Below are positions 5,079-31,937 of a DNA stretch of 64,000 nt, piece by piece (within the stretch, counting starts at the first letter, position 1; every line of letters starts with the position of its first letter). The position numbers and the translations under genes are program-made. A model generated the notes under the pieces. It searched no databases, was not told the DNA's origin, and saw only the letters and a program-made list of their open reading frames with translations. The DNA comes from [Limnothrix rosea] IAM M-220 (GTDB lineage Bacteria; Cyanobacteriota; Cyanobacteriia; Cyanobacteriales; MRBY01). Location of the stretch: contig NZ_CM007612.1 of NCBI RefSeq assembly GCF_001904615.1, forward strand, positions 1-64,000, written 5' to 3'.

Positions 5079-8000
5079 ATGATGCTAACAATTGCGACGA
5101 TGACACCAGCAAAAGCTGGCAGTTACTACAAAGAAAATTATTACGAAGAAGAAGACCAAGTTGAATTTTCTGAGTGGTGGGGAAAAGGTGCAGAGTCGCT
5201 GGGGCTGTCAGGTCAGATCAACGATCCGAAAGTCTTTCGTCATATGTTGCAGGGTTTGACAGCAGATGGTCAGACAAAACTACGGGCAGCTCCACCGAGA
5301 GGAAAAGAAGCAAGGGCAGGCACTGATTTAACATTTTCAGCACCGAAATCAATCTCAATAGCCGCTTTGGTAAATGGAGAAAGGCAATTACTCGAAGCCC
5401 ATAATCGAGTGGTAGACCGAATGTTGAACCTGATTCAAGAACGATATGCAGAAACTCGCGTCAAAAAACAGCATCAAAAAATTGATAATTTGTGCGTTGC
5501 TAAATTCCTGCATGATACGAACCGGGAGCTAGAACCGAATTTGCATACCCATTGTCTGGTGATGAATATCGCCCAAGATGAGTCAGGAGTATGGCGTTCC
5601 GCAGCTAATCGAAAGCTATATCGACACAGAATATTGTTGGGGAGAATGTATCAAAATGAGTTGGCATATGAAGTGCAAAAGCTGGGCTATGAGATTGAAA
5701 TCAGAAGGGATGGTTATTTTGAACTGAAAGGCTACACGCGAGAACAGATAGAAGGATTCAGCGATCGCCACCAGCAGATCCTCGACTATCTCGAAACAGA
5801 AGGGTTAGAAGATACCACCGAGAACCGCATTACAGCCCTATTTGCCACCCGTAAAACCAAGCAAAAAAATGTAGATCGCCGAGAACTCCAGCAGCAATGG
5901 CAAGCCGAAGCGCAAAAATTAGACATCACACATCCCACCCCAAAACCATCACCTCAAAAAGTCGAAAGCAATGTGCCGGAGTTGGTGGCCCAAGCCATCC
6001 GCCATAACGAAGAACGCACCGCCATCTTCACGAGCGAAGATCTTGAAAGCTTTGTGGTGAGCCAACCTACAGGTCAATCCTTCGATGAAATAGAGACGGC
6101 GATCAAAGCTAATCCCCGACTCATTCGCCGAGGAGATCGCCCAGCTAAATTTGCAACAGAGGAAAGCCTAGAGCGCGAAAAAATGACCGTTGCAATCATG
6201 CTAGACGGTCAAAACCGACTGCCGCCAATACTCCAAAATCAGGAAATCCATCTTCCTGAAAACCTCACAATCTCCCAAACCGTTGCCATTAACCATGCCC
6301 TGAAGAGCCAAGACCGTATTGTGGGCTGGGTGGGAGTTGCCGGAGCCGGAAAAACCTTCACCCTGAAAACCTTGGTAAATATTGCCAAAAATCAAGGAAT
6401 TGAAATATCCGGCTTTGCCCCCGATGCCAGTAGTGCCGAAGTATTAGGCGATGAAATCAACATCACGACCAATACTGTCGCGTACCATCTCCTCGAAAAC
6501 AGTGAACCCTCAACCAAACGAAAACTGTGGATTATTGACGAAGCTGGAAAACTGTCCGCCCAAGAAGCCTATGACTTACTACAAAAATCCAGATTTTATA
6601 ATGCCCAATTATTATTAGTCGGAGATCCCAAACAACTAACCGCCGTCAATGCTGGTGCACCCTTTAAATCCCTCATTGATAACGGTTTAAGCAGTAGCCA
6701 ATTAAAAGATTTTCTCCGACAAAAAGACCCCATTTTGGCGCGGGCAGTCCAACTCACTTATTACAACCTTGGCGCAGAATCCATTGTCTGGCTAAACAAA
6801 CATGACAAAATCACCGAAAGCGAATCCCTCGAAGCAAGAGCCGAACAAATTGCCGCGACTTATTTAGACCTTACAGAAACAGAACGGAGTCAAACCCTAG
6901 TCTTGTCAGGTACTCACCGCGAACGTCACGCCATCACTTCACGAATTCGGCAAGGATTAAAACAAGAAAAAAAGCTTACCGACCAAGACTTCATCATAAA
7001 TATTCTCAGCCGTAAAAATATGACTGAAGAGCAGAAACAACATGCCCGATTTTATGAAGTGGGCGATGTCCTGATTCCTTTAAAAAATCATAATTGCTTG
7101 AAACGTTCCCAGCGTTATCAAATCACTAAAATCGAAGCCGAAAACATCACCTTAGATGACCGCATTACCCTAAACTTCAAAGGCTTCAAATATCCACTCT
7201 CAACCGAAGTTTTCACCCAACACCACCTGAATATCGCTGAGGGCGATCGCCTGAAATGGACGAGAAATAACCGCAAAGATAAACGCTTCAACGGGCGGGA
7301 ATTCACCATTCAAGCCATTGACCCAGAAACAAGAATAGCAAAAGTTACCTACGATTCAGGTCGCCAAGATCAATTCTCCCTCGATGATTGCAACCATGTA
7401 GATCACGCCATTGTGGGCACAGTCTACTCTAGCCAAGGCAAAACCACAGACCGAGTTTTAGTCAGTTTTGGCAATGATCCGACCGTCAACCGCGAAAGCG
7501 TTTTAGTTGCCCTATCCCGCGCTAAATATGACGCACAAATCTGGACACCCAACGCCCAGAAATTAGCAGAACTAGCCGATATTTCCTATAACCAAACCAA
7601 CCCATCCGAACTGCTCAAAGAACAGGGCATCAAATTACCGCCCCCACCTGCCCCTCTGCACATTGAAGAAAAACATTGGTTGGAGCGAGTCGAAGCCTCC
7701 GGCATTGCCCCAGAAGTTGCCGCATTAAATGCCATTTCCCTAAAAGAAATGGATGTCTACGAACACTTGCTAGATAAGCATTTAGCCACCTTGGGCAGTG
7801 GACAGTTTGTGACCCAACGAATGAAGCGGGTGATGGATAAATATGCCACCGTTGCCGAGGGAGGCGTTTGGGCAGATGGCGGCATCGATGCGACAAAACT
7901 CCCCCATTTGCAACCCGGACAAGTTCCCCCCGAAAAAGAATTTGGAGAGTTTAAAGCCGACCAGCCCCGTTTAGATGAATATAAAACCCAGAAAAAAGGC

Positions 8001-8846
8001 AGTGACCAGTACCGCAAATATGAAGCACCGAGAGGCATTCCTAAGGGAATTAGTTTCCCGAAAGTGCCCGATATTTTTGCCGAGAAAATCTATGAACGTT
8101 ACGGTGTGAATCCCAGTGCTGAAGAGCGAAAGAGCGGTTTTTGGGCTTGCGTGTATTGGCATCCAGAAATAGCGATTATTCCGGTGGAAGGCAAGAAAAA
8201 AGCTGAGGCACTCATCAGTCAGGGCTATGGGGCGATCGCCTTACCGAGCGTGACAGGTGGATATCGCTCAAAGGAAGATGGGGTAGAACTACCAAAACGC
8301 AGACTCCATCCAGAATTAGAGGTCTTCGCAACAAGCGGACGACAACTCCTGATGGCATTCGATCAAGACACCAAACAAAGCACCGTGCAAAATGTGCGGC
8401 GAGATTTAGTGCGAACCGGAGAATTATTAGCCGAAGCAGGCTGTGAAGTATCTGTTCTCAAATGGCAGTCCCACGAAGGCAAGGGCATCGATGATTTGCT
8501 GGTGAATCAAGGCGTTGAGCGATTAACCGAGGTCATTAAGCACAGTATTCCCCTCGCGTGGGAAGCCGAAAAACATTATCGCAACGAGTATTTGAAGCTG
8601 CGAAATTATCTACTGAAAACCCAAGGGCAAGGGCGCAAACTTACTGAACTGATGATCGATACGGCGATCGCCTACATTGCGAAACCCCAAGATGTTTTCA
8701 AAATCTTGCACCAAAGCAATACTCTCGAAGTACGCCGTAAGCAGGGCATTCCCGAAGATTTTCAAACTTATCAAATGCAGATAGAACGAGAATTACAGCG
8801 TTTAGAACAGAGGCTAAATCCCAAGCAAAAATTGCGTTTGAAATAG
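5079..8846 (+). CDS. MobF (TraI/TrwC-type) conjugative relaxase-helicase with DUF3854/Toprim-like C-terminus, 1255 aa
   Basis: It nicks plasmid DNA at oriT and unwinds the transferred strand. The N-terminal ~300 residues are a TrwC relaxase domain: tyrosine pairs at 16/17 and 21/22, and metal-binding His145, His156 and His158 (LHTHC), a spacing close to F TraI. A RecD-like helicase follows, with Walker A GVAGAGKT at 419-426, Walker B WIIDEAG at ~485 and late motifs VYSSQGKTTDRV and VALSRAKYDA at ~785-825. Residues ~1010-1170 carry VEGKKKAEAL and LLMAFDQD, matching DUF3854, a Toprim-related domain found in plasmid replication proteins. The ATG at 5079 is chosen for the AGGACAG 8 nt upstream; an in-frame TTG precedes it. 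Such relaxase-DUF3854 fusions appear typical of cyanobacterial plasmids. Confidence 0.93.
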   Translation: MMLTIATMTPAKAGSYYKENYYEEEDQVEFSEWWGKGAESLGLSGQINDPKVFRHMLQGLTADGQTKLRAAPPRGKEARAGTDLTFSAPKSISIAALVNGERQLLEAHNRVVDRMLNLIQERYAETRVKKQHQKIDNLCVAKFLHDTNRELEPNLHTHCLVMNIAQDESGVWRSAANRKLYRHRILLGRMYQNELAYEVQKLGYEIEIRRDGYFELKGYTREQIEGFSDRHQQILDYLETEGLEDTTENRITALFATRKTKQKNVDRRELQQQWQAEAQKLDITHPTPKPSPQKVESNVPELVAQAIRHNEERTAIFTSEDLESFVVSQPTGQSFDEIETAIKANPRLIRRGDRPAKFATEESLEREKMTVAIMLDGQNRLPPILQNQEIHLPENLTISQTVAINHALKSQDRIVGWVGVAGAGKTFTLKTLVNIAKNQGIEISGFAPDASSAEVLGDEINITTNTVAYHLLENSEPSTKRKLWIIDEAGKLSAQEAYDLLQKSRFYNAQLLLVGDPKQLTAVNAGAPFKSLIDNGLSSSQLKDFLRQKDPILARAVQLTYYNLGAESIVWLNKHDKITESESLEARAEQIAATYLDLTETERSQTLVLSGTHRERHAITSRIRQGLKQEKKLTDQDFIINILSRKNMTEEQKQHARFYEVGDVLIPLKNHNCLKRSQRYQITKIEAENITLDDRITLNFKGFKYPLSTEVFTQHHLNIAEGDRLKWTRNNRKDKRFNGREFTIQAIDPETRIAKVTYDSGRQDQFSLDDCNHVDHAIVGTVYSSQGKTTDRVLVSFGNDPTVNRESVLVALSRAKYDAQIWTPNAQKLAELADISYNQTNPSELLKEQGIKLPPPPAPLHIEEKHWLERVEASGIAPEVAALNAISLKEMDVYEHLLDKHLATLGSGQFVTQRMKRVMDKYATVAEGGVWADGGIDATKLPHLQPGQVPPEKEFGEFKADQPRLDEYKTQKKGSDQYRKYEAPRGIPKGISFPKVPDIFAEKIYERYGVNPSAEERKSGFWACVYWHPEIAIIPVEGKKKAEALISQGYGAIALPSVTGGYRSKEDGVELPKRRLHPELEVFATSGRQLLMAFDQDTKQSTVQNVRRDLVRTGELLAEAGCEVSVLKWQSHEGKGIDDLLVNQGVERLTEVIKHSIPLAWEAEKHYRNEYLKLRNYLLKTQGQGRKLTELMIDTAIAYIAKPQDVFKILHQSNTLEVRRKQGIPEDFQTYQMQIERELQRLEQRLNPKQKLRLK

Positions 8847-8927
8847 TAGATGAGGGCGATCGCTAATAATCGATAATTTGTTGCATAGATTCCTTAGAGC
8901 CAAAAGAAAGTTTTTTTGCCAGAAAAC

Positions 8928-8956
8928 TTGACACTAAAAAATTTGAAATTCATACT
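8928..8956 (+). promoter_or_regulatory. Sigma-70-type promoter of the AbiE-like operon
   Basis: TTGACA (8928-8933) and CATACT (8951-8956) are separated by exactly 17 bp, giving a perfect -35 and a 4/6 -10 box. Transcription would start near 8963. That excludes the upstream TTG at 8916 as the normal start and supports the ATG at 8985. Confidence 0.55.
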
Positions 8957-8984
8957 AAATAAAGAGTGTGCGCATAATCAAAAA

Positions 8985-9695
8985 ATGTTGAGTAAAGCTG
9001 AAGCGATTCGCCACCGCATTGAAAAACAGGATAAACAATACTGGCAAATCCAAGATTTTCCTGATTTACCAATGACGACTGTCGCCAAAACACTGTCTCG
9101 CCTAACTCAGAAAGGTTACCTCACTAGGGTTAGTAAAGGCGTGTACTATCGCCCCAAAATGACGCGCTTTGGTCAAACTCATCCGAGTCAGACGGGAGTG
9201 CAAGAACTGCTTAAAAAAACAGGAGTTACGCTATATCCTGCTGGAATAAGTGCTGCAAACTTTCTGGGTTTGACGACGCAAAATACTCCCTACGGAGAAT
9301 TTGCGACCTCAGCCTCTAGCCTGCCTTTAAAATTGTTAGGAGAACGAGCAAAACTACATACCCGTCGCCCTGCCAATTGGCATCAATTGAATGTAACTGA
9401 AGCCGCTCTGTTAGATAGTTTGCGTAATCGTGGCATCCATAGTGAATTTCCCCCCCAAGAAACGATGCAAAAAATTCTTGACTTACTAAATACAGAAGAG
9501 CATTTTGAAAATATTATGGCGATCGCCACAACAGAACCACCTAGAGTTAGAGCAATATTAGGTGCAATGGGGCAAACATTAAAAAAAGATTCCAAACAAT
9601 TACAAAAATTAAAAAGGCAACTAAATCCCTTATCTAGATTTGACTTTGGCTTGTTTAAAGAACTGCCGTTTGCAGAAGAATGGCAAGCCAAATGA
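8985..9695 (+). CDS. AbiEi-type antitoxin/transcriptional regulator, 236 aa
   Basis: The N-terminus is a winged helix (AIRHRIEKQDKQYWQIQDF, then TTVAKTLSRLTQKGYLTRVSKGVYYRPK), as in AbiEi antitoxins, followed by a domain with GISAANFLGLTTQNTP. In type IV AbiE systems AbiEi represses the operon and counteracts the AbiEii nucleotidyltransferase without a stable complex. The next gene overlaps its end and encodes that toxin. I use the ATG at 8985 because a good promoter lies between it and the upstream TTG at 8916. The module probably stabilises the plasmid and may abort phage infection. Confidence 0.82.
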   Translation: MLSKAEAIRHRIEKQDKQYWQIQDFPDLPMTTVAKTLSRLTQKGYLTRVSKGVYYRPKMTRFGQTHPSQTGVQELLKKTGVTLYPAGISAANFLGLTTQNTPYGEFATSASSLPLKLLGERAKLHTRRPANWHQLNVTEAALLDSLRNRGIHSEFPPQETMQKILDLLNTEEHFENIMAIATTEPPRVRAILGAMGQTLKKDSKQLQKLKRQLNPLSRFDFGLFKELPFAEEWQAK

Positions 9696-10657
9696 AACTA
9701 TTTGAATCACCCGATTTTACTGATTTAATTCAAGCAACCCAAAACCATTTCGGACATATTGGCTTGACAGAAATGTTAGTAGAAAAGGACTACTATGTGA
9801 CTGAAGCCTTGAGGATAATTGCCTATCAATACCCACAACAAGTAATTTTTAAAGGAGGAACAAGCCTATCAAAAGCATGGAATCTTATCCAACGATTTTC
9901 AGAAGATATTGATCTATTTTTGAATAAAAAAGCCTTTGATCCTCCCCTCGGTGAAAGCAAGGCAGATAAAACCCTGAAAACCTTAGAAAATATAGTGACT
10001 AGCCACCCTGCTTTTACCTTGGATAGAGAGAGAAAAGCGTCAAAAAGGGGAGTTTATCGCCATAGCTATTTTCACTATCCTCAACAATTTCCGAGTCTCG
10101 GATTAGTATCAAATCGAATTTTTCTGGAAGTCGGTACAAGGAGTGGAACATATCCCGTTGAAGAATGTGAAATTTCTTCTTATGTTAGCCAATTTTTAAA
10201 AGCAAAAGGAGAAAGCCTTAATGCTGAAGATGAAGCTTCTTTTACCATGTCAGTGCTGCATTATAGACGTACTTTTGTAGAGAAATTATTTGCAATTCAC
10301 AGTGCTGTAATGGACTTCCAAAATCAGCAAAAAGCTCTTGGAAGTCAAGTGAGACATTACTATGATCTGTATTGTTTGGCGCAAACTAATGAAATCACTC
10401 AATTATTGACTAGTGATGAATACCAAGCAATTAAATTAGATGTTTACGAAATTAGTAAACTGAGTTTTCCACAACAAATTGATCTTCTCCCAGAAGCTTT
10501 AGACTTTTCCAAGAGTGTGGCTCTTTTTCCTGAATTAGATTTAGCGAAAGAGATCGCCAAAGAATATAAAACTCAATGTCAAAGCCTGTGTTATGGCAAA
10601 TTTCCTAAATGGCAGGAAATTCAAGAGTGTTTTGCTGAAATTTGTGCTTATCTTTAA
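9680..10657 (+). CDS. AbiEii/AbiGii-type nucleotidyltransferase toxin, 325 aa
   Basis: The protein carries the AbiEii signature IFKGGTSLSKAWNLIQRFSEDIDLFLNK at ~50-80: a GG[ST]xL loop and a DxD metal pair (EDIDL). A conserved RRTFVEKLFAIHS follows at ~190-205, typical of this family. AbiEii toxins are GTP-binding nucleotidyltransferases; related enzymes modify tRNA 3' ends and stop growth. The ATG at 9680 overlaps the antitoxin gene by 16 bp. A second ATG at 9692 sits in an ATGA stop/start overlap and is an equally reasonable start (321 aa). Length and motifs look complete, so the module is probably functional. Confidence 0.87.
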   Translation: MASQMKLFESPDFTDLIQATQNHFGHIGLTEMLVEKDYYVTEALRIIAYQYPQQVIFKGGTSLSKAWNLIQRFSEDIDLFLNKKAFDPPLGESKADKTLKTLENIVTSHPAFTLDRERKASKRGVYRHSYFHYPQQFPSLGLVSNRIFLEVGTRSGTYPVEECEISSYVSQFLKAKGESLNAEDEASFTMSVLHYRRTFVEKLFAIHSAVMDFQNQQKALGSQVRHYYDLYCLAQTNEITQLLTSDEYQAIKLDVYEISKLSFPQQIDLLPEALDFSKSVALFPELDLAKEIAKEYKTQCQSLCYGKFPKWQEIQECFAEICAYL

Positions 10658-10716
10658 GATAAAAATTTAGCTATTGCCAGCACAATAGTCATGAATCTTA
10701 GACGTAAAATGGAACT

Positions 10717-10851
10717 CTATCTTGTCGAAAAATATTGATCTAACTTATTGAGTAATGCTAAACCAACGATGGGATTACCTTTTTTTGCTAATATTCTAAA
10801 GCGAACTTTTGCCTTGAGTTCAGCTAATTTAATATCAGAAATATTGTCCAT
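10717..10851 (-). CDS. Possible small protein, 44 aa
   Basis: A short frame from the ATG at 10851 reads MDNISDIKLAELKAKVRFRI and then LAKKGNPIVGLALLNKLDQYF. The composition is plausible for a small helical protein but no family is recognised and no ribosome-binding site is evident. It occupies most of the 290-bp gap between the AbiE pair and the transfer operon. It could equally be a fragment of a lost gene. Confidence 0.3.
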   Translation of the reverse strand: MDNISDIKLAELKAKVRFRILAKKGNPIVGLALLNKLDQYFSTR

Positions 10852-10914
10852 AAATTAATCCATCAGAATCTCTATTCTTGTGCCAAGATAGCGTATTAAT
10901 GAGGATTTTTGCCA

Positions 10915-10939
10915 CAAAAAAGGCATCCCCGAAGATGCC
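10915..10939 (-). terminator. Rho-independent terminator of the transfer operon
   Basis: On the minus strand GGCATC-TTCGGG-GATGCC forms a 6-bp GC-rich hairpin (10922-10939), directly followed by a run of six or more T (10915-10921 as A on the plus strand). It lies about 10 bp past the stop of the last transfer-operon gene. Confidence 0.85.
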
Positions 10940-10948
10940 AAAAAAAGC

Positions 10949-11140
10949 TTAACGTTTCACTGGACATTCAAGTGGAGGAGATGTCCTAAAAGCCATCCGC
11001 ATGAAGGAACGATTGAGGACAAAACTACCTGTTCCCTCGATGATCAGTAGACAAATCCAGAGCCAGCGACCTCGATACAGGACAACTCCCACAAACGAGA
11101 TCAATTGCTGGGCAAAATAGATGAGGGAGATCGCCTGCAT
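10949..11140 (-). CDS. Small membrane protein of the transfer operon, 63 aa
   Basis: Two hydrophobic segments (about residues 3-20 and 26-42, around LWICLLIIEGTGSFVL) and a basic tail ending in CPVKR suggest a small inner-membrane protein. Its ATG is 2 bp after the stop of the preceding gene and a terminator follows, so it is the last gene of the minus-strand transfer operon. No family is recognised. Confidence 0.6.
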   Translation of the reverse strand: MQAISLIYFAQQLISFVGVVLYRGRWLWICLLIIEGTGSFVLNRSFMRMAFRTSPPLECPVKR

Positions 11141-11142
11141 GA

Positions 11143-12264
11143 TTAAGCCTTTTGAGTGTGTTTATGTTGAGTGGTTTCCTGTTGAGGAGTTTGCATAACC
11201 TGCTGTGAAGGCGTTTGAGATAACCCATAATTTTGATTTGCCTTCATCACAAAATCCTTGATGACCCCCATTTCCTTGGAAGTTGCTGAAGTTGGCGTAA
11301 TTATTTGATTGTCAGCCTTACGAGTCAAACTCACCCCACCATCCGGTGCAACACTCCAGGCGATCGCCTTCGTCTGAAAAGTTTTGGTTCCATCCGCCGC
11401 AAGATCAACCTCGCCGATTTTCTCCATCTGACTGACCACCACCTTGACCGCTGGTTCCACAAACTTATTCATGAAAACTTCTGCCGCCTGTTGACCCGTT
11501 TGACTCAGAGTTTGATGGAGCTGTTCTTGCACCTGACCCTGAGTTTGTGCCAACTTCTCAGAAGCCGTCACAGAAATCTGATTTGCCAAACCCCGCAACT
11601 TATCCGCAACCAGATTGCGCTGCTGATTAAACCATTGACCTAAACGCTGATTTGGAGTTTGCACCGGAACCGGATTTAATGCTTTTTCTTGCGTTAAAGT
11701 ATCCAGTCTTGTTTGCAGTTCAGTGATCTTTTCATTCGTCAAATTAAGCTGAGTTTGTAACGCCTCAAACTGCTCCATCGAAAAAGTCTGAACCGTATCT
11801 TTTTTCTCTCCTGAAACTTCAACATTATCCAAAGGTGGAGCTTGGTCTGGAACTGAAACCGCTTCAGAACTGACTGGAGAATTAGTATTTTGCCCCTCCG
11901 TATTGGATTGGAGCAGAGCCAAATCATTCTTGAGAATTTGCCCCCCTTTGCTTTTAAACAAAACCTGATTCTGCTTGTCAATCACCCGCACAGAACCGGA
12001 ATTCTCCTGAGGTGCAAATGCCTCACTGAGGGTTTTAGCCTGCATTTGAGTTAACTGTGTGCGCTTGCCATCCCCGTTGACTGTCCCATCAAAAACCTTT
12101 TTCGAGCCGACCCGAATTGTAATTTCTTGATTGGGATCCATGCCCAGTTGAGCTAATTTCTGCAAGAGCTGATCCAGAGCCGAGACTGCCATGGCTGAAG
12201 CCTCAACTGAATTATTGGTGATTTCACTGGCAGAGTGCTGATCACTAGATTGTTGAATATCCAT
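11143..12264 (-). CDS. Hypothetical transfer-operon protein with long coiled coil, 373 aa
   Basis: No family is recognised. The sequence is Gln/Thr/Val-rich and soluble. A compact part near residues 45-110 (ITIRVGSKKVFDGTVNGDGK ... SGSVRVIDKQNQVLFKSKGG) looks folded. Residues ~165-200 (MEQFEALQTQLNLTNEKITE) are coiled coil and ~205-270 form an amphipathic helical region. The final part is Gln/His-rich. It lies between the coupling-protein gene and the terminal membrane protein, so a role in DNA processing or transfer regulation is possible. Confidence 0.6.
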   Translation of the reverse strand: MDIQQSSDQHSASEITNNSVEASAMAVSALDQLLQKLAQLGMDPNQEITIRVGSKKVFDGTVNGDGKRTQLTQMQAKTLSEAFAPQENSGSVRVIDKQNQVLFKSKGGQILKNDLALLQSNTEGQNTNSPVSSEAVSVPDQAPPLDNVEVSGEKKDTVQTFSMEQFEALQTQLNLTNEKITELQTRLDTLTQEKALNPVPVQTPNQRLGQWFNQQRNLVADKLRGLANQISVTASEKLAQTQGQVQEQLHQTLSQTGQQAAEVFMNKFVEPAVKVVVSQMEKIGEVDLAADGTKTFQTKAIAWSVAPDGGVSLTRKADNQIITPTSATSKEMGVIKDFVMKANQNYGLSQTPSQQVMQTPQQETTQHKHTQKA

Positions 12265-25691: not shown

Positions 25692-28600
25692 ATGGAAGAG
25701 AAGATTGCCATTGAAAAACCAGCCATTGCAGAATATTTCAGCAGTCAACTAAGTCAGGGAGTTAGATTTGGATCAATCGCAACAGCTAGAAAAGCAATAG
25801 AGCAAGAGTTTGGCATCAAAGTTTCTGCGGGAAGTCGAACGGCGAAGGCCGTGGATGAAGTGATTGAACTTTCATTGGTGAAGGTGGCGCGGGAGATTGC
25901 AAAGCTTGAAAACCGATTAGAAGCGTTTGATCTGTTGGTAGATCTGTATGATCGCCAACCCCGTTTAGGCGTGAGATCTTCCACAAGTGTCCGGCAGCAA
26001 GCTTATAGTACAGCTTTACCAATTGCTTATCTAGCTTCGACTTTAGCTGGAATTAATCAGACATCACGGGTGTACGAACCGACGGCGGGAAATGGGGCTT
26101 TATTGCTGGGGGCATTGCCGGAAAATTGTACGGTGAACGAACTCAATCCTGACCGAGCCGAGCAACTCAGGAGCCAAGGTTTTACGTTGTCAGGGCATGA
26201 TGCAACGGAATATCTGCCTGAAAAATTGCATGATGTGGTGATTATGAATCCGCCGTTTGGTCGGGTGAAGGGGAAACGATTTTGCCTCGCCGGAGATGCA
26301 GGGACAACCAGCCAAATTGATCAGGCGATCGCCCTCCAGTCGTTACAAGCGATGAAAGACGATGGACGGGCTGTGTTGATCCTTGGCGGCAAACCAGAAA
26401 TCACTCTGTCAGAACGCTCTGAAGCCTATAACAGTCTGGAAACCCGGCGCTTTTTTTACATCTTGCAGCAGCAGTATAAAGTAACGGATCACTTCACCAT
26501 CAGCGGCGATTTGTACCGGAAACAGGGCGCGGGTTGGGCGATTGACATTATTCAAATTGCTGGACGAGGCACATCAGAACGTCCATTACCCGCTGTGGAA
26601 CCGCCCAGAATTTACACCAGTTTTAACCAATTACGAGACTTTTTAAATGAATATCTCCAACGTGATCCAATTGCCGAGCTACGAAGAGTATCAGACCCAC
26701 GACCGAGTGTGGATTCCAATGACAGAAGGGGATCAAGCCCTATTTATGGTGCGAATTCCGCCAGAGTTAACGAGTCTGGATTTTCCGACCTACCTCGAAT
26801 TGATGAAAGTGCGGGTGGAATGGATGTGCCGTCAGTGGATCAAGCGCAACAGACCGGAGGCATTGCAAGCCGAATTAATGGAAACGCTGCGACAGCTCAA
26901 TCCGATTCAGACAGCTCCTTTGCTCTATCAAGAGGAGGAGGCAGAACAGATTTGGATTTGGGCATCGGATTGGGCAGAAAGTCTGGTGGAATTCGACCCG
27001 ACATGGCTGAACTGGTGGCAGGTGACCAACTGGGCAATCGAGTTTCCCGTCCAATTAACGGAGCTAAAACCGGATCCCAATCAAATGGCACAGCACGACG
27101 CAGTGACGATCACCCAGTTTCTGTCGGAACTCAGAACCGATTTCAAATAGAAGACTTTGAGAATATGAGTGAAGAATTTAATATTGCCTATCAACCGAGA
27201 AGTGAAGGGCGATCGCCGCAAACCCTCATCCCCACCAATATGGCGGTTGCCGCTCAGAAAGCTCTGGATAATTTAGAAGCGGAATACGGCAATCTCGATG
27301 ATTTTGTGCGGGAACGGTTGGGTTATGAATCCAAAGCAGCAATGTATGCAGTGTTGTATGCCGAGCAAATTGATGCCCTTGCCCTCGCATTTTCCCAGAA
27401 GGATAAAGGCAAAATCTTTCTCAATGGTGACCAGACAGGCAATGGCAAAGGTAGATTTGGTGCTGCCAATATCATTGATGCTCAACGACAGGGCTATATT
27501 CCCGTATTTGTGACCCAAAAACCGAATCTCTATGCTGCGATGCTGGAGGATTTGGCGGATATTGGGCATGGTGGACTTACGCCGTTTATGACCAATAACA
27601 GTGAAAAGCTCACCCTGAAAAATGGGTTGGTGTTGACCACCGGAGATAAAGCGAGTCAGGAAGCAGAGATGTTTCAACTCGCTAAACGCTTGGATTTAGG
27701 CAGTTATGGCGCAGTGTTCACTACCTATAACCAATTGCAAACGGTCAGTAATCAGGAACCCTATCGTCGGGAATTCTTGAGGGCGATCGCCCATCGTTCA
27801 GTCTTTATTTTTGATGAAGCCCATGAAGCAGGCGGCGGTCAAGCTGAAACATGGAATGTAGGACAAGCTCCCAACCGTGCCGAATTTGTGCGGGAATTGG
27901 TGGATCTCAGTGCAGGCGCAGTTTTCATGTCCGCCACTGCCACGAAAAATCCCGCCGTGATGGATTTGTACGCCAGAGGAACCGATGCAATCCATGCCGT
28001 GGACAGTATGTACCGTTTGGAAAATACCCTGAAAGCAGGTGGGATTCCATTACAGCAAATGATGGCAACCCAGTTTGTCAGCGCAGGGAATATGCTGCGG
28101 CGGGAAAGGAGTTTTGACAACATCAGTTTCGATGCCAAGACAGTCCCCGTGAATCAAGAAATTGCCGACAATATTTCAGCGGTGATGCGGGCAATTGATC
28201 GCTTTGATGCCACTAAAACCGAGGCTATGAAGGACTTACGCAAGGAGGTAAAGGCAGAAGCCAAAAGTCTCGGCGAGGATAATTCCATCGGTAAAGCTGG
28301 TGTAAAATCCGTCAACTTTACCTCCCTGATGCACAACGCCATCGAACAAGGTTTACTCTCTCAAAAAGCTGAAGCTACAGTCCAAGAAGCGATCGCCGCC
28401 CTAGAGCGAGGCGAAAAACCATTAATTGCCCTGTCCAACACCATGGATAGCTTCATTGGGAACTATGCCAAAGACCAAGGTATCGAAGCGGGCGAGGCCA
28501 TAGAGGTGACGTTCGGCGATGTGTTAAACCGTTATCTTGAACGTTCCCGCGACGTAATTATCACCGACTACCTCGGCAAACGCACCAGAATTCCCATGAC

Positions 28601-31600
28601 CCCAGAACAGTTGGGGGAAGAAGGGATCGCCGCCTTTGAGGAAGCCAAGGAAATCCTTGCAGAAGCCGATTTTTCAAAAATTCCCCTCAGCTCCATCGAT
28701 TACATGAAATATCGCTTGGCACAGGAGGGCTATCGCGTCGATGAAATTACAGGGCGTAGCAGTATTCTCCAGTACAACGACGAAGGCATGACCTATGCCC
28801 TCCGTTCCGCTAAAGACACCAGTCCCCAAGCCAAAATTGATATCGTCAATCGTTTCAACAGTGGACAGCTCGATGTCGTCATTTTGAATCGCAGTGGTGC
28901 AACTGGAATTAGTCTCCATGCCTCCGAAAAATTCACCGACCAACGTCCCCGCCACATGATCGTTGCCCAAGCCGAGCGGGATATTAACCAGATGATGCAG
29001 ATGCTGGGACGGGCTAATCGCTTTGGACAGGTCATCGAACCAAAATTTACCTTGGTGATGGCAGACGTTCCCGCCGAGAAACGTTTGGGTGCAATCTTGG
29101 CGAAAAAAATGGCTTCCCTTAATGCAAACACCACCGCCGGAAGGGATTCTGCCCTGAGCGTCGGAAATGTAATTGATTTTATGAATACCGCAGGGGAGGA
29201 AGTGATCACCGAATTATTGGAGGAAAATCCTGAACTCGATGCGATGCTGTCCTATCCGACCCGTGGCAGTCTGGATGGTGAAACGGCTCTGATTGAAAGG
29301 GTTACAGGACGAATTCCACTCTTACCCCTAGCGGATCAAGAAGAACTGTATGGCATCATCGAAGCCGAAACTGAAGCCCTCATTAAACAAAAAGAGGCGA
29401 TGGGCGAGAATATCTTAGCCGCTGATAAACTCGACCTCAATGCCCGCACGGTGGCAAGGATGGAAGTTGTGGCAGCTGATGCCAATATTGTCAGCGAATT
29501 CACTGGGACAGTAATGCTGGAAGTGATGGATGCCAAGGTGATCAACAAACCGCCCTCCCAACTACAGGTGATCAATTTGGTGCGGGAAAGTCTTGGGCAA
29601 CCCAAAGTAAAAGCCATTGAAGAGCATGATTTAGAGACGATACAGGCGATCGCCCAACAACAGGGTAGTGAAAAACTCCAAGCCCTCCAAACCGCGATGA
29701 CTGCCTATCAGGAACGGGTATTGTCCCAACTAAAATCGGCGGAAACGGTAAACAATACTCGGGAAAAACTTGATCGCCAATTCGACAATGTACAGAAGCT
29801 GATTGAGCAATTTTCCCCCGGTGAATCCGTGCAGTTTTTTAGCCTTGGGTTAGAGGATGTGAAAGTTTCCTCCGGTGTGGTGGTGGGCATTGCCCAGAAA
29901 AGTCGGGCGATTGGCAGTCCCAGTGCGCCAACGAATTGGACAATGCAAATCATCAGCCTCGAAGGAAAATTGCTCTCCTTGCCCTTCTCCAAAATCAATA
30001 CGGAACGAGCATCCAGCATTACCCTTAATCCGGTGGATTCAGACCGCAATATCTATGGAGAATTTGATCGCCTGCAACAGGCACAGCGCACAGAGATGCA
30101 GGTTTTTACGGGGAATTTGCTCAAAGCCTACGAGAAATTCCCCAAGGGTAAGTTTGTGAATTTTACAGACAATCAGGGGCAGACAAGACAGGGACTCTTG
30201 ATGCATCAGGATTTCGATATTGTCGAGCAGCTCCAGCAACAGCCCGTATTGTTTGAAAACCCAGAACAGGTAGGGCTTTTCCTCACTGAATGGAGTCATC
30301 ACCGAGGGATTGTGGAGTCTTTGGAGCTGGATTTGGCGATTAAGGCGAATGGTAAAGCCCGCTTGAATGGCGATGCCGCTGAATATTATGTGGTGCAAGT
30401 GCCAGAAGCAACGAGTCGTGGTGGTAAATATTTCCTCAACGAGTCCCTACTCCAAGCCGCTAATGATGAATTCTATTCAGTCGGTGGACGGATGGAAATG
30501 CGAGTACATCCCGATGATTTGGCGGCAGTGGTCAAAGTCTTGATGGAGGAGCTACAGGTTAAATTGGCTGTCCATGACCTGAGTTACAAGGAGCTGTTAC
30601 GGGGGCATTTGGGACAATCTTTGCCGACTTTACAGGAGGTTACGCCATCGGTTGGACAACGGGAAGTGACGGAACAATTGCAACTTTTTAACGCTGTGCC
30701 AGTCGAACCAGTCGAAGCAGTTGCCCCACCGATTCCAGAGGCAGCGATCGCCCCCCAAGAATTTATACCGGAAATCCCAGTCTCTGAAAATCCTGCTCCG
30801 GTGCAACCACAACCATCGACAACCCAAATGCAGGGAATTTTATCGTCAGAAAAACAGGGAAGTAAGGCGGCGAAGCAGATTGCCCAATTGCTCCATGAAG
30901 GCGGTTTAGCGGCTGAGATTTTGCAAGGGGAAAGCTTTCATCAGCGATTTGAACAGCAAAGTTATTTACCCTTTGTGATTGAGCGGCATGGAGAGCAGGT
31001 TTATTTGAGCCATTACGCCGAGCTGAATGGGGATCATTATATTGATGCTGAAATGGTGTTTCAGATTGGGCAGCGGGGCAATTTATCGTTGCTGGAAACG
31101 GCGAGTTATAACCCTTTGACGGGGGGTGAGCTGCGCAATAAAGATTACAGTTTTGCGGATTTGTTCTCTGGAAATTTGTTGGCGCAGGGTTGGGCGGAGG
31201 TGATGCAGGCAAGTCGGCAAAGTGTGGCTCCAGAGCCAGAAATACCGGAACCGATGGAAGCTGTTGTTGAATCTCAAGAACTGACTGTTGCAAAATCTGA
31301 GCAACCTGTGGAGGAAACGGCTCAATCGAGTGCAAAGGATTTGGTGGCGAGTCCGAAGAATTGGCTGACCGTGGCACAGGCGATCGCCAAATCTCCGGCA
31401 TATTTACAACGAATTCAGGAGGTGACCGCTCAACCCTTGCAGGAAAAAGCTGTGACGGCGATGGAAAAAGATTTTGCCATGTTTCAGCAGTCCATGACGG
31501 CATTAAGGCAGTGGTATCATTGCGCCCGTTGTATCGATAAAACCGCAACATATTTACAGGGAATTCAGGAGATCGCCGAACAATTCAAAGCAGGTCAACC

Positions 31601-31937
31601 CTTACCAGAATCGATTCAGCACGCTATGTTGGAAGACCGCCGCGTGGCAACCTTTGAACACTTGGCGACAGGATTAGACCGACAACATCCCGAAACTTTT
31701 CTCCAAAATGTTGCCCGGAAAGGCTTACAGAAGGGAATCCAATTACAGGAACTCGCCGCGACCTTACTACAGGGAGATCCAGCCCTGCGAGATATTCATA
31801 AAATTCAGCCCCAATCGACCCAAACCTATCTGCAAAAAATCTTGACTTCCGCCGAGCAATTATTCACCAGAGAACAACGACAACCTTTGCCGATTCAAGT
31901 TTCCAGCGAACAAAGTAACCATCATCCTAAACTGTAA
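25692..31937 (+). CDS. Giant DNA methyltransferase / strawberry-notch-type helicase fusion, 2081 aa
   Basis: Residues ~90-310 form an N6-adenine-type methyltransferase: SAM motif I YEPTAGNGALLLG at ~127-139 and catalytic NPPFG at ~186-190. Residues ~320-490 are Gly/Ser/Arg/Asp-rich and linker-like. From ~492 a strawberry-notch-like superfamily-2 helicase follows: atypical Walker A GDQTGNGKGR at ~579-588, FIFDEAHEAGGGQ at ~706, GATGISLHA at ~1070 and QMLGRANRFGQ at ~1103-1113. The last ~700 residues are of unknown fold. AGGAGG stands 7 nt before the ATG. Similar methylase-helicase giants on phages and plasmids (P1 DarB is the named example) protect entering DNA from restriction; that role here is inference. 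Confidence 0.85.
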   Translation: MEEKIAIEKPAIAEYFSSQLSQGVRFGSIATARKAIEQEFGIKVSAGSRTAKAVDEVIELSLVKVAREIAKLENRLEAFDLLVDLYDRQPRLGVRSSTSVRQQAYSTALPIAYLASTLAGINQTSRVYEPTAGNGALLLGALPENCTVNELNPDRAEQLRSQGFTLSGHDATEYLPEKLHDVVIMNPPFGRVKGKRFCLAGDAGTTSQIDQAIALQSLQAMKDDGRAVLILGGKPEITLSERSEAYNSLETRRFFYILQQQYKVTDHFTISGDLYRKQGAGWAIDIIQIAGRGTSERPLPAVEPPRIYTSFNQLRDFLNEYLQRDPIAELRRVSDPRPSVDSNDRRGSSPIYGANSARVNESGFSDLPRIDESAGGMDVPSVDQAQQTGGIASRINGNAATAQSDSDSSFALSRGGGRTDLDLGIGLGRKSGGIRPDMAELVAGDQLGNRVSRPINGAKTGSQSNGTARRSDDHPVSVGTQNRFQIEDFENMSEEFNIAYQPRSEGRSPQTLIPTNMAVAAQKALDNLEAEYGNLDDFVRERLGYESKAAMYAVLYAEQIDALALAFSQKDKGKIFLNGDQTGNGKGRFGAANIIDAQRQGYIPVFVTQKPNLYAAMLEDLADIGHGGLTPFMTNNSEKLTLKNGLVLTTGDKASQEAEMFQLAKRLDLGSYGAVFTTYNQLQTVSNQEPYRREFLRAIAHRSVFIFDEAHEAGGGQAETWNVGQAPNRAEFVRELVDLSAGAVFMSATATKNPAVMDLYARGTDAIHAVDSMYRLENTLKAGGIPLQQMMATQFVSAGNMLRRERSFDNISFDAKTVPVNQEIADNISAVMRAIDRFDATKTEAMKDLRKEVKAEAKSLGEDNSIGKAGVKSVNFTSLMHNAIEQGLLSQKAEATVQEAIAALERGEKPLIALSNTMDSFIGNYAKDQGIEAGEAIEVTFGDVLNRYLERSRDVIITDYLGKRTRIPMTPEQLGEEGIAAFEEAKEILAEADFSKIPLSSIDYMKYRLAQEGYRVDEITGRSSILQYNDEGMTYALRSAKDTSPQAKIDIVNRFNSGQLDVVILNRSGATGISLHASEKFTDQRPRHMIVAQAERDINQMMQMLGRANRFGQVIEPKFTLVMADVPAEKRLGAILAKKMASLNANTTAGRDSALSVGNVIDFMNTAGEEVITELLEENPELDAMLSYPTRGSLDGETALIERVTGRIPLLPLADQEELYGIIEAETEALIKQKEAMGENILAADKLDLNARTVARMEVVAADANIVSEFTGTVMLEVMDAKVINKPPSQLQVINLVRESLGQPKVKAIEEHDLETIQAIAQQQGSEKLQALQTAMTAYQERVLSQLKSAETVNNTREKLDRQFDNVQKLIEQFSPGESVQFFSLGLEDVKVSSGVVVGIAQKSRAIGSPSAPTNWTMQIISLEGKLLSLPFSKINTERASSITLNPVDSDRNIYGEFDRLQQAQRTEMQVFTGNLLKAYEKFPKGKFVNFTDNQGQTRQGLLMHQDFDIVEQLQQQPVLFENPEQVGLFLTEWSHHRGIVESLELDLAIKANGKARLNGDAAEYYVVQVPEATSRGGKYFLNESLLQAANDEFYSVGGRMEMRVHPDDLAAVVKVLMEELQVKLAVHDLSYKELLRGHLGQSLPTLQEVTPSVGQREVTEQLQLFNAVPVEPVEAVAPPIPEAAIAPQEFIPEIPVSENPAPVQPQPSTTQMQGILSSEKQGSKAAKQIAQLLHEGGLAAEILQGESFHQRFEQQSYLPFVIERHGEQVYLSHYAELNGDHYIDAEMVFQIGQRGNLSLLETASYNPLTGGELRNKDYSFADLFSGNLLAQGWAEVMQASRQSVAPEPEIPEPMEAVVESQELTVAKSEQPVEETAQSSAKDLVASPKNWLTVAQAIAKSPAYLQRIQEVTAQPLQEKAVTAMEKDFAMFQQSMTALRQWYHCARCIDKTATYLQGIQEIAEQFKAGQPLPESIQHAMLEDRRVATFEHLATGLDRQHPETFLQNVARKGLQKGIQLQELAATLLQGDPALRDIHKIQPQSTQTYLQKILTSAEQLFTREQRQPLPIQVSSEQSNHHPKL
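26647..27150 (+). CDS. Overlapping 167-aa reading frame inside the methyltransferase-helicase gene
   Basis: This frame is +1 relative to the host gene and runs from ATG 26647 to TAG 27148-27150. Its product looks like a normal folded protein: Trp-rich, with amphipathic segments such as VWIPMTEGDQALFMVRIPPE, LMKVRVEWMCRQWIKRNRP and WIWASDWAESLVEFDPTWLN. In the same interval the host frame is Gly/Ser/Arg/Asp-rich and uses many AGA, AGG, CGA, GGA and TCA codons, as expected for the non-selected frame. An in-frame ATG of the host (27165) just downstream would start the helicase part cleanly. Either a genuine overlapping gene, or an ancestral small gene now bridged by a read-through fusion. No family is recognised. 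Confidence 0.6.
   Translation: MNISNVIQLPSYEEYQTHDRVWIPMTEGDQALFMVRIPPELTSLDFPTYLELMKVRVEWMCRQWIKRNRPEALQAELMETLRQLNPIQTAPLLYQEEEAEQIWIWASDWAESLVEFDPTWLNWWQVTNWAIEFPVQLTELKPDPNQMAQHDAVTITQFLSELRTDFK

Follow-up and report, generated by a model that had tools for sequence, protein, structure and literature searches.

A 167-codon frame nested in a cyanobacterial methyltransferase-helicase gene is conserved in plasmids and viruses and is under purifying selection

Same-strand genes nested in a different frame are known from phage lambda (Rz/Rz1) and from Bacillus (comS in srfA). Their nested products are far shorter than the small protein described here; for long nested genes on the same strand, bacterial examples are few and frequently contested. 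Unlike in Rz/Rz1 and comS in srfA, the host frame in the overlap studied here is a nearly neutral linker. The long overlapping genes of Escherichia coli O157:H7 resemble the present case in being long frames in annotated genes that annotation had missed; they are antisense and are regarded by their authors as weakly expressed and probably young (PMC9927249). The frame described here differs from them in lying on the same strand, in occurring in several cyanobacterial families as well as viruses, and in having a confident predicted fold.

Methylase-helicase dyads are known from phages and conjugative elements, and DarB of phage P1 protects DNA from restriction (PMC5512222). Our host gene is built like the DarB-type polyvalent dyad described there: an adenine methylase of the NPP(Y/F) type (here NPPF) is followed C-terminally by a SWI2/SNF2-type helicase (AAA_34 and Helicase_C_4). 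The helicase here is of the strawberry-notch kind and, as with the DarB-type dyad, the genes lie on mobilizable plasmids and in viruses (PMC5512222). The main text of that paper does not use the word "overlapping," and its section 14 names no nested gene. We found no report of the nested gene in the literature searched, which took in few subscription papers.

The locus and the predicted small protein

The window (the whole stretch of DNA analyzed, 64,000 nt from Limnothrix rosea IAM M-220) is part of a 73-kb contig in a genome of 4.07 Mb and 92 contigs. Its relatives place it near Picosynechococcus. A sequence-only reading had placed a 167-aa frame in the +1 phase inside a methyltransferase-helicase gene. 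The frame is there: the ORF at 26647-27150 (+ strand, ATG, 167 aa) lies wholly within the ORF at 25692-31937, at an offset of +1, and is the sole + strand ORF of at least 100 aa nested in that gene. Also present is the host-frame ATG at 27165, from which the helicase part could start. The features of the locus are as follows.

25692..31937, + strand: host gene, 2081 aa, methyltransferase plus strawberry-notch helicase (AAA_34, 7.5e-16; Helicase_C_4, 1.4e-23)
25872..26621, + strand: host methyltransferase region, aa 61-310; kept in other loci, with PHROG DNA methyltransferase matches
26634..26638, + strand: position of the putative ribosome-binding site, CGAGA, weak; CGAGGA or AAGGAG in many relatives
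26644..26646, + strand: TAA in the small frame, abutting its ATG (from the sequence)
26646..27149, + strand: host-frame linker over the small gene; Gly/Ser/Arg/Asp-rich, near-neutral amino acids, stop-free
26647..27150, + strand: nested small gene (ATG start, TAG stop), 167 aa; supported by homologues, selection, and predicted structure
27165..27167, + strand: in-frame host ATG just past the small stop (from the sequence); possible helicase-only start
27327..28163, + strand: AAA_34, helicase ATPase domain, host aa 546-824 (domain match)
28734..29219, + strand: Helicase_C_4, helicase C-terminal domain, host aa 1015-1176 (domain match)
30879..31109, + strand: DUF6908, C-terminal part of the host, aa 1730-1806 (domain match)

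The NPPF motif stands at host aa 186, inside the methyltransferase region. An antisense open frame (30763-31551, - strand, 262 aa with an ATG) lies inside the 3' end of the host gene.

The two frames have distinct compositions. Pooled over 57 loci, the host linker consists of 11.8% G, 10.6% S, 10.7% R, 8.4% D, and 0.1% W, and the small frame contains 4.7% W; this agrees with the earlier description of a Gly/Ser/Arg/Asp-rich host frame and a Trp-rich +1 frame. Judging by its composition, the linker is probably disordered.

AlphaFold2 gave a confident model of the small protein (pLDDT 92.0, pTM 0.88) from an alignment of 77 cyanobacterial and viral rows led by the window sequence. A viral-only alignment of 22 rows gave a pLDDT of 94.2 and a pTM of 0.87, with strands and helices in the same order in both models. 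The length of 167 aa, the pLDDT of 92, and the pTM of 0.88 do not fit the short, disordered product of a young overprinted gene. Foldseek with the mixed model led by the window returned no match at an E of ≤0.001 in PDB or BFVD, and the best of the reexamined rows was a weak match (Z 3.2 over 97 residues, rmsd 5.2); the predicted fold is possibly new. The window protein had no match in Pfam, NCBIfam (curated cutoff), or PHROGs, and the free-standing relatives described below gave nothing above the cutoff in family libraries.

Conservation and selection in cyanobacteria

A tblastn search of 72,556 plasmid records returned four matches to the small protein, covering 98 to 99% of its length at 64 to 86% identity (NIES-970, 86%; PCC 7117, 74%; PCC 7002, 65%; PCC 7003, 64%). 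All four sit inside a homologous helicase gene, on plasmids typed as mobilizable (MOBF) in PLSDB; the PLSDB gene tables of these plasmids, which are incomplete, do not list the small gene as a gene of its own. A fifth relative, on a Limnothrix contig, is 90% identical. Over the same stretch the host frame is 75% (NIES-970), 54% (7117), 47% (7002), 47% (7003), and 87% (Limnothrix) identical, below the 91 to 94% identity of the helicase in the same relatives. In PCC 7003 (L006) the host frame ends early (CDS 5495-8836) with the small frame intact, and genes for a pRiA4b ORF-3 family protein and a recombinase (8836-11583) stand in place of the remaining host.

The small gene is present in five of the six genomes of the family; the sixth has neither the small gene nor a helicase match at an E of ≤1e-30. 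Across the class, a six-row profile of the small protein matched 55 of 388 genomes at an E of ≤0.1, a broader 31-row profile matched 55 of 388 at an E of ≤0.01, and a helicase profile matched 53 of 388 at an E of ≤1e-20. The 55 genomes, together with the viruses below, do not fit a young orphan gene restricted to a few close relatives. Eight of the broader-profile matches above 1e-8 were listed with one internal stop; in L052 and L101, the listed stop is the codon directly before the ATG or the gene's own stop.

We took 60 loci around small-gene matches, of which 58 contain the small gene (L110 and L111, which lack it, were set aside) and 52 have it flanked by both enzymes. The small frame is in the +1 phase relative to the methylase in all 52. 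The helicase shares the methylase frame in 51 of these, and the methylase frame is stop-free up to the helicase in 50. One exception is L069, where an indel in the overlap (near 7480-7690) breaks both frames and the small frame continues into that of the helicase (1993 aa); a defective copy or an error in sequencing could account for this. The other, L097, has one stop within the methylase part. A further 28 loci were picked by helicase or small-protein matches, and 18 of these are fused, all with an open +1 linker frame (14 identified by profile match). L126 to L129 have a +1 frame open for ~175 to 180 codons; three of them, aligned, gave a profile match with an E of 6e-5 and a probability of 65. 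Set aside here were L130, L131, L134, and L139 (helicase at or near a contig end) and L122 (no helicase found). In L132 (reverse complement, 5156-8998), a helicase ORF of 1281 aa has neither a methylase nor a small gene found upstream.

Altogether, the +1 linker frame is open in 77 of 77 fused cyanobacterial loci (52, plus 18, plus 6 from the genus and 1 Chroococcidiopsis plasmid), a set that contains many near-copies, some loci that run off a contig end, and two with a broken host frame. Membership is by sequence match in 73 and by the open frame in 4 (3 of these with a weak profile match). Homologues with many stops in the +1 frame, which would have spoken against a nested gene, occurred in no fused cyanobacterial locus examined.

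The +1 offset makes host position 1 the third (wobble) position of the small frame. Substitutions peak at host position 3 outside the overlap and at host position 1 within it. Among the six genus loci (15 pairs), substitutions per site at host positions 1, 2, and 3 were 0.323, 0.214, and 0.138 in the overlap and 0.182, 0.143, and 0.403 in the helicase, the latter pooled figure including the Limnothrix contig, whose broken frame there makes its share not meaningful. In a clade of 23 loci (253 pairs) the corresponding values were 0.220, 0.095, and 0.080 in the overlap and 0.045, 0.019, and 0.324 in the helicase. Four further pairs had the same position pattern. With pairs pooled, each of the six groups of relatives had its highest variability in the overlap at host position 1; among single genus pairs, that position was not alone on top in two of six (7002/7003 and window/Limnothrix, which are close and have few differences). 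The switch falls at the small ATG and the small stop, to within 60 nt (60-nt bins). We also scanned the window and three full-length relatives in 40-codon windows with enough aligned codons: host position 1 exceeded position 3 only in nine windows, which together cover 26592-27191.

The sequence-only reading had asked for substitution patterns and dN/dS in each frame, and these favor the small gene. By an OLGenie-like count with our own script, dN/dS in the six groups was 0.28, 0.40, 0.15, 0.35, 0.26, and 0.14 in the small frame (range, 0.14 to 0.40) and 1.06, 1.41, 0.81, 0.54, 0.80, and 0.82 in the host frame over the overlap (range, 0.54 to 1.41). From the position pattern and dN/dS, the small frame is thus the constrained one, and the host frame is nearly neutral in its amino acids there. 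The host frame is nevertheless kept open across the overlap: synonymous shuffling of the small gene predicts a mean of 3.45 host-frame stops, and none was seen in 57 of 57 loci (L069 left out). In the reverse direction, replacing host codons by synonyms drawn at the host's codon usage gave the window's small frame 3.95 stops on average, with the frame open in 0.75% of 400 trials; over the 57 loci, which were preselected for an open small frame, the mean was 3.2 stops. The substitution pattern is a stronger test than chance openness.

By every computed test, the two frames are today a true overlapping gene pair, one of the two alternatives raised by the earlier reading. Purifying selection acts on the nested frame, which lies on the same strand in another phase, and the host frame is maintained. 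The host frame also behaves as the read-through linker that had been proposed, since its amino acids evolve almost neutrally.

Viral relatives and translation of the small frame

Profile A1, used for an initial search of viruses, returned no relatives, and tblastn did not match a viral small protein to any of the named phages. A helicase-profile search of IMG/VR yielded 321 relatives, of which we examined the best 80; 78 of these have a fused methylase, and L190 and L227, in which the upstream part is missing, were set aside. All viral counts here and below come from these best 80 of 321. The +1 frame of the linker has an open stretch of at least 92 codons in 78 of 78, longer than the +2 stretch in 77. 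Synonymous shuffles gave 107 codons versus 129 observed, with a P value of ≤0.05 in 14 of 78. Viral +1 openness alone proves little, because the linker amino acids themselves predict 107 codons.

Similarity between the viral and cyanobacterial small proteins is more informative: the two families match by profile with an E of 1e-7 and a probability of 94. Taking start codons with a Shine-Dalgarno (SD)-like preference, we found a long form of the small protein (at least 115 aa) in 59 of the 78 fusions among the best 80. A cyanobacteria-only profile matches 36 of the 78, all long forms, and a joint profile, whose 23 viral rows match by construction, matches 58 of the 59 long forms. Counted from the chosen ATG, the +1 frames of the other 19 loci (L149, L150, L155, L156, and 15 more) are short, at 65 to 111 aa; the joint profile picks up one of them (L195), and the cyanobacteria-only profile picks up none. 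These short frames are possibly a trimmed or a different nested gene. Among viral pairs of 0.70 to 0.99 identity from the same best 80, with starts chosen in the same way, host position 1 varied more than position 3 in the overlap in 106 of 108.

Open +1 frames also turned up outside these sets. Bacteroides phage BS-TP4 (L142) has a giant ORF whose linker +1 frame is open for 121 codons (5567-5923); profile comparison shows no homology (probabilities of 1.1 and 1.6), and we therefore did not count it as a member. Of 297 plasmid records matching the helicase, we inspected five from outside the cyanobacteria, together with one Acinetobacter phage; none contained a convincing small gene, and the +1 frames of L144 and L146 in the non-cyanobacterial set are open by composition, with no similarity to the small protein.

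We then counted ribosome-binding sequences at the first ATG of the small frame, applying no start preference and taking controls from the same genes. SD-like four-mers precede it in 44 of 57 cyanobacterial loci, compared with a fraction of 0.11 of other +1-frame ATGs, and AAGGAG lies upstream in 34 of 57, compared with 0 of 1,360. The corresponding viral figures, again from the best 80 of 321, are 69 of 77 versus 0.09 and 45 of 77 versus 0 of 1,154. The window itself has CGAGA alone, a weak site. In 56 of 57 cyanobacterial loci, the 75 nt past the small stop contain a host-frame ATG (control, 0.41), from which a helicase-only product may start; among the viral loci of the best 80, 15 of 78 have one (control, 0.51). 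In the proteogenomics literature on PCC 7002, we found no passage bearing on the locus.

We consider it very probable that this DNA yields two proteins at once, with the +1 frame an independently initiated gene for a folded protein and the host frame a disordered, stop-free linker. Conservation, phase, selection on the small frame, the lack of host stops, the confident predicted fold, and the viral relatives all support it computationally. The +1 product would be a folded, helix-rich protein of 167 residues here and roughly 115 to 200 in relatives. Over the same DNA, the host frame would encode a disordered tether from the adenine DNA methyltransferase to the strawberry-notch helicase, in which the amino acid sequence would hardly matter as long as it held no stop. 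Ribosomes probably initiate the small protein within the giant mRNA at the conserved ATG, in many relatives by way of an AAGGAG-type sequence before it. Both products are probably translated, and the host protein is presumably made as a full-length fusion.

Other readings of the same data fare less well. That no protein is made, the +1 frame being open through composition or a DNA- or RNA-level signal, draws on the viral linkers of the best 80, whose amino acids alone predict long +1 frames; this is extremely improbable in view of the codon-position pattern, the small-frame dN/dS, a conserved protein with a confident predicted fold, and free-standing copies with frames of their own. Programmed frameshifting from the methylase frame, in place of an own start, would be easiest in the 14 of 57 cyanobacterial loci where the small frame is stop-free over the 30 codons before its ATG. 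A small-frame stop abuts the ATG in the window, in 43 of the 59 viral loci with the long form (best 80 of 321, starts chosen with the SD-like preference), and in only 4 of 57 cyanobacterial loci; where such a stop is present, an upstream frameshift would not lead into the small frame; with a ribosome-binding site at the small ATG as well, we hold frameshifting to be very improbable. It is also conceivable, but unlikely, that the fusion goes unused: the methylase would terminate in a tail, with independent starts for the small protein and the helicase, and the host frame would be open only incidentally. Pointing that way is the internal host ATG that cyanobacteria keep; an SD-like site accompanies it in 16 of 57 loci (control, 0.06). 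However, the stop-free host frame in 57 of 57 loci where 3.45 stops are expected, the helicase lying in the methylase frame in 51 of 52, and the failure of the viruses among the best 80 to keep the internal ATG all argue for a host frame that is read through.

Origin, role, and significance

Some copies of the small gene lie outside the giant gene. In four loci (L119, L121, L123, and L125), it stands free directly before a helicase gene with no fused methylase, and the would-be host frame is full of stops. The profile of this group matches the mixed cyanobacterial profile at an E of 2.5e-9 and the viral profile barely (E of 0.061). In an unrooted helicase tree of 58 rows, the four form one clade (100/100) with a nested sister group, where the label "nested" is also carried by L142 and the short viral forms of unproven homology. 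Six further loci (L094, L095, L096, L102, L103, and L106) have a copy with neither enzyme nearby. Two of these copies (L096, 2495-3136, and L102, 6613-7212) have an N-terminal extension and lie near genes that resemble, by eye, Dps and ATP synthase subunits.

The simplest history had been taken to be a methylase gene, a small gene, and a helicase gene, with the host frame now reading through the small gene as a linker; fusion would have followed the loss of the methylase stop. Free-standing small genes directly before a separate helicase gene fit this account, but their position as a single clade with a nested sister is more simply taken as derived, with the caveat that the tree is unrooted. 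Separate, adjoining methylase and helicase genes in Persicobacter also speak for a fusion, as do the host-frame ATG just past the small stop in nearly all cyanobacterial loci and codon usage, which in 45 of 57 cyanobacterial loci is closer to that of the host in the small frame than in the host frame. The viral loci of the best 80 weigh against it, being mostly without that ATG and having no codon usage preference (39 of 78), so that codon usage is informative about age in cyanobacteria only; moreover, we found no locus with all three genes separate, using a methylase profile. We put this history a little short of an even chance.

The small gene could instead have been overprinted in the linker of an already fused methylase-helicase gene before the viral and cyanobacterial lineages split and later have escaped to stand free, which we rate as a serious possibility, if under even. 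Viruses and cyanobacteria widely share the nested state, the helicase-adjacent free state is one clade, and copies without a helicase exist. Four proteobacterial plasmids inspected have a fusion with no recognizable small gene, and in three of the four, the methylase-helicase linker is shorter (86 to 120 aa). Against an origin by overprinting stand the confident, compact predicted fold, which in our judgment is unexpected of an overprinted gene, and the more host-like codon usage of the small frame in cyanobacteria. Fusion around a preexisting small gene and birth in the linker thus stand at about even odds. The same DNA appears to have been dual coding for a very long time, because related plasmids and viruses carry a relative of the small gene at the same place.

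As to role, the least certain part of our reading, there is about an even chance that the small protein is an accessory of the methylase-helicase, made in step with it, that aids the survival of the element's DNA on entering a new host, a task proposed for DarB-like methylase-helicases. This assisting role is suggested by position and co-occurrence. Of the genomes with the six isolated copies, only G463 matches this helicase; the lack of a match in the other five argues against strict dependence on the helicase. The family persists without the giant gene, and its task may therefore be wider than serving it.

It is likely that a folded +1 protein of a new family is a regular, hitherto unseen part of methylase/strawberry-notch-helicase genes in cyanobacteria and many viruses, with the linker as its by-product frame. 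The finding would supply a protein hitherto missing from a widespread antirestriction-type module. Its signal is exceptionally clean, as the wobble position changes frame at the nested start and stop in several lineages, and the case illustrates that, of two frames, annotation can overlook the one under stronger constraint. The locus also offers a model in which dual coding costs little because one of the products is a linker. If our reading is correct, pairing a globular protein with a disordered linker in a second frame would be a general, low-cost way of nesting genes, and further linkers of giant proteins from phages and plasmids may likewise hold hidden genes.
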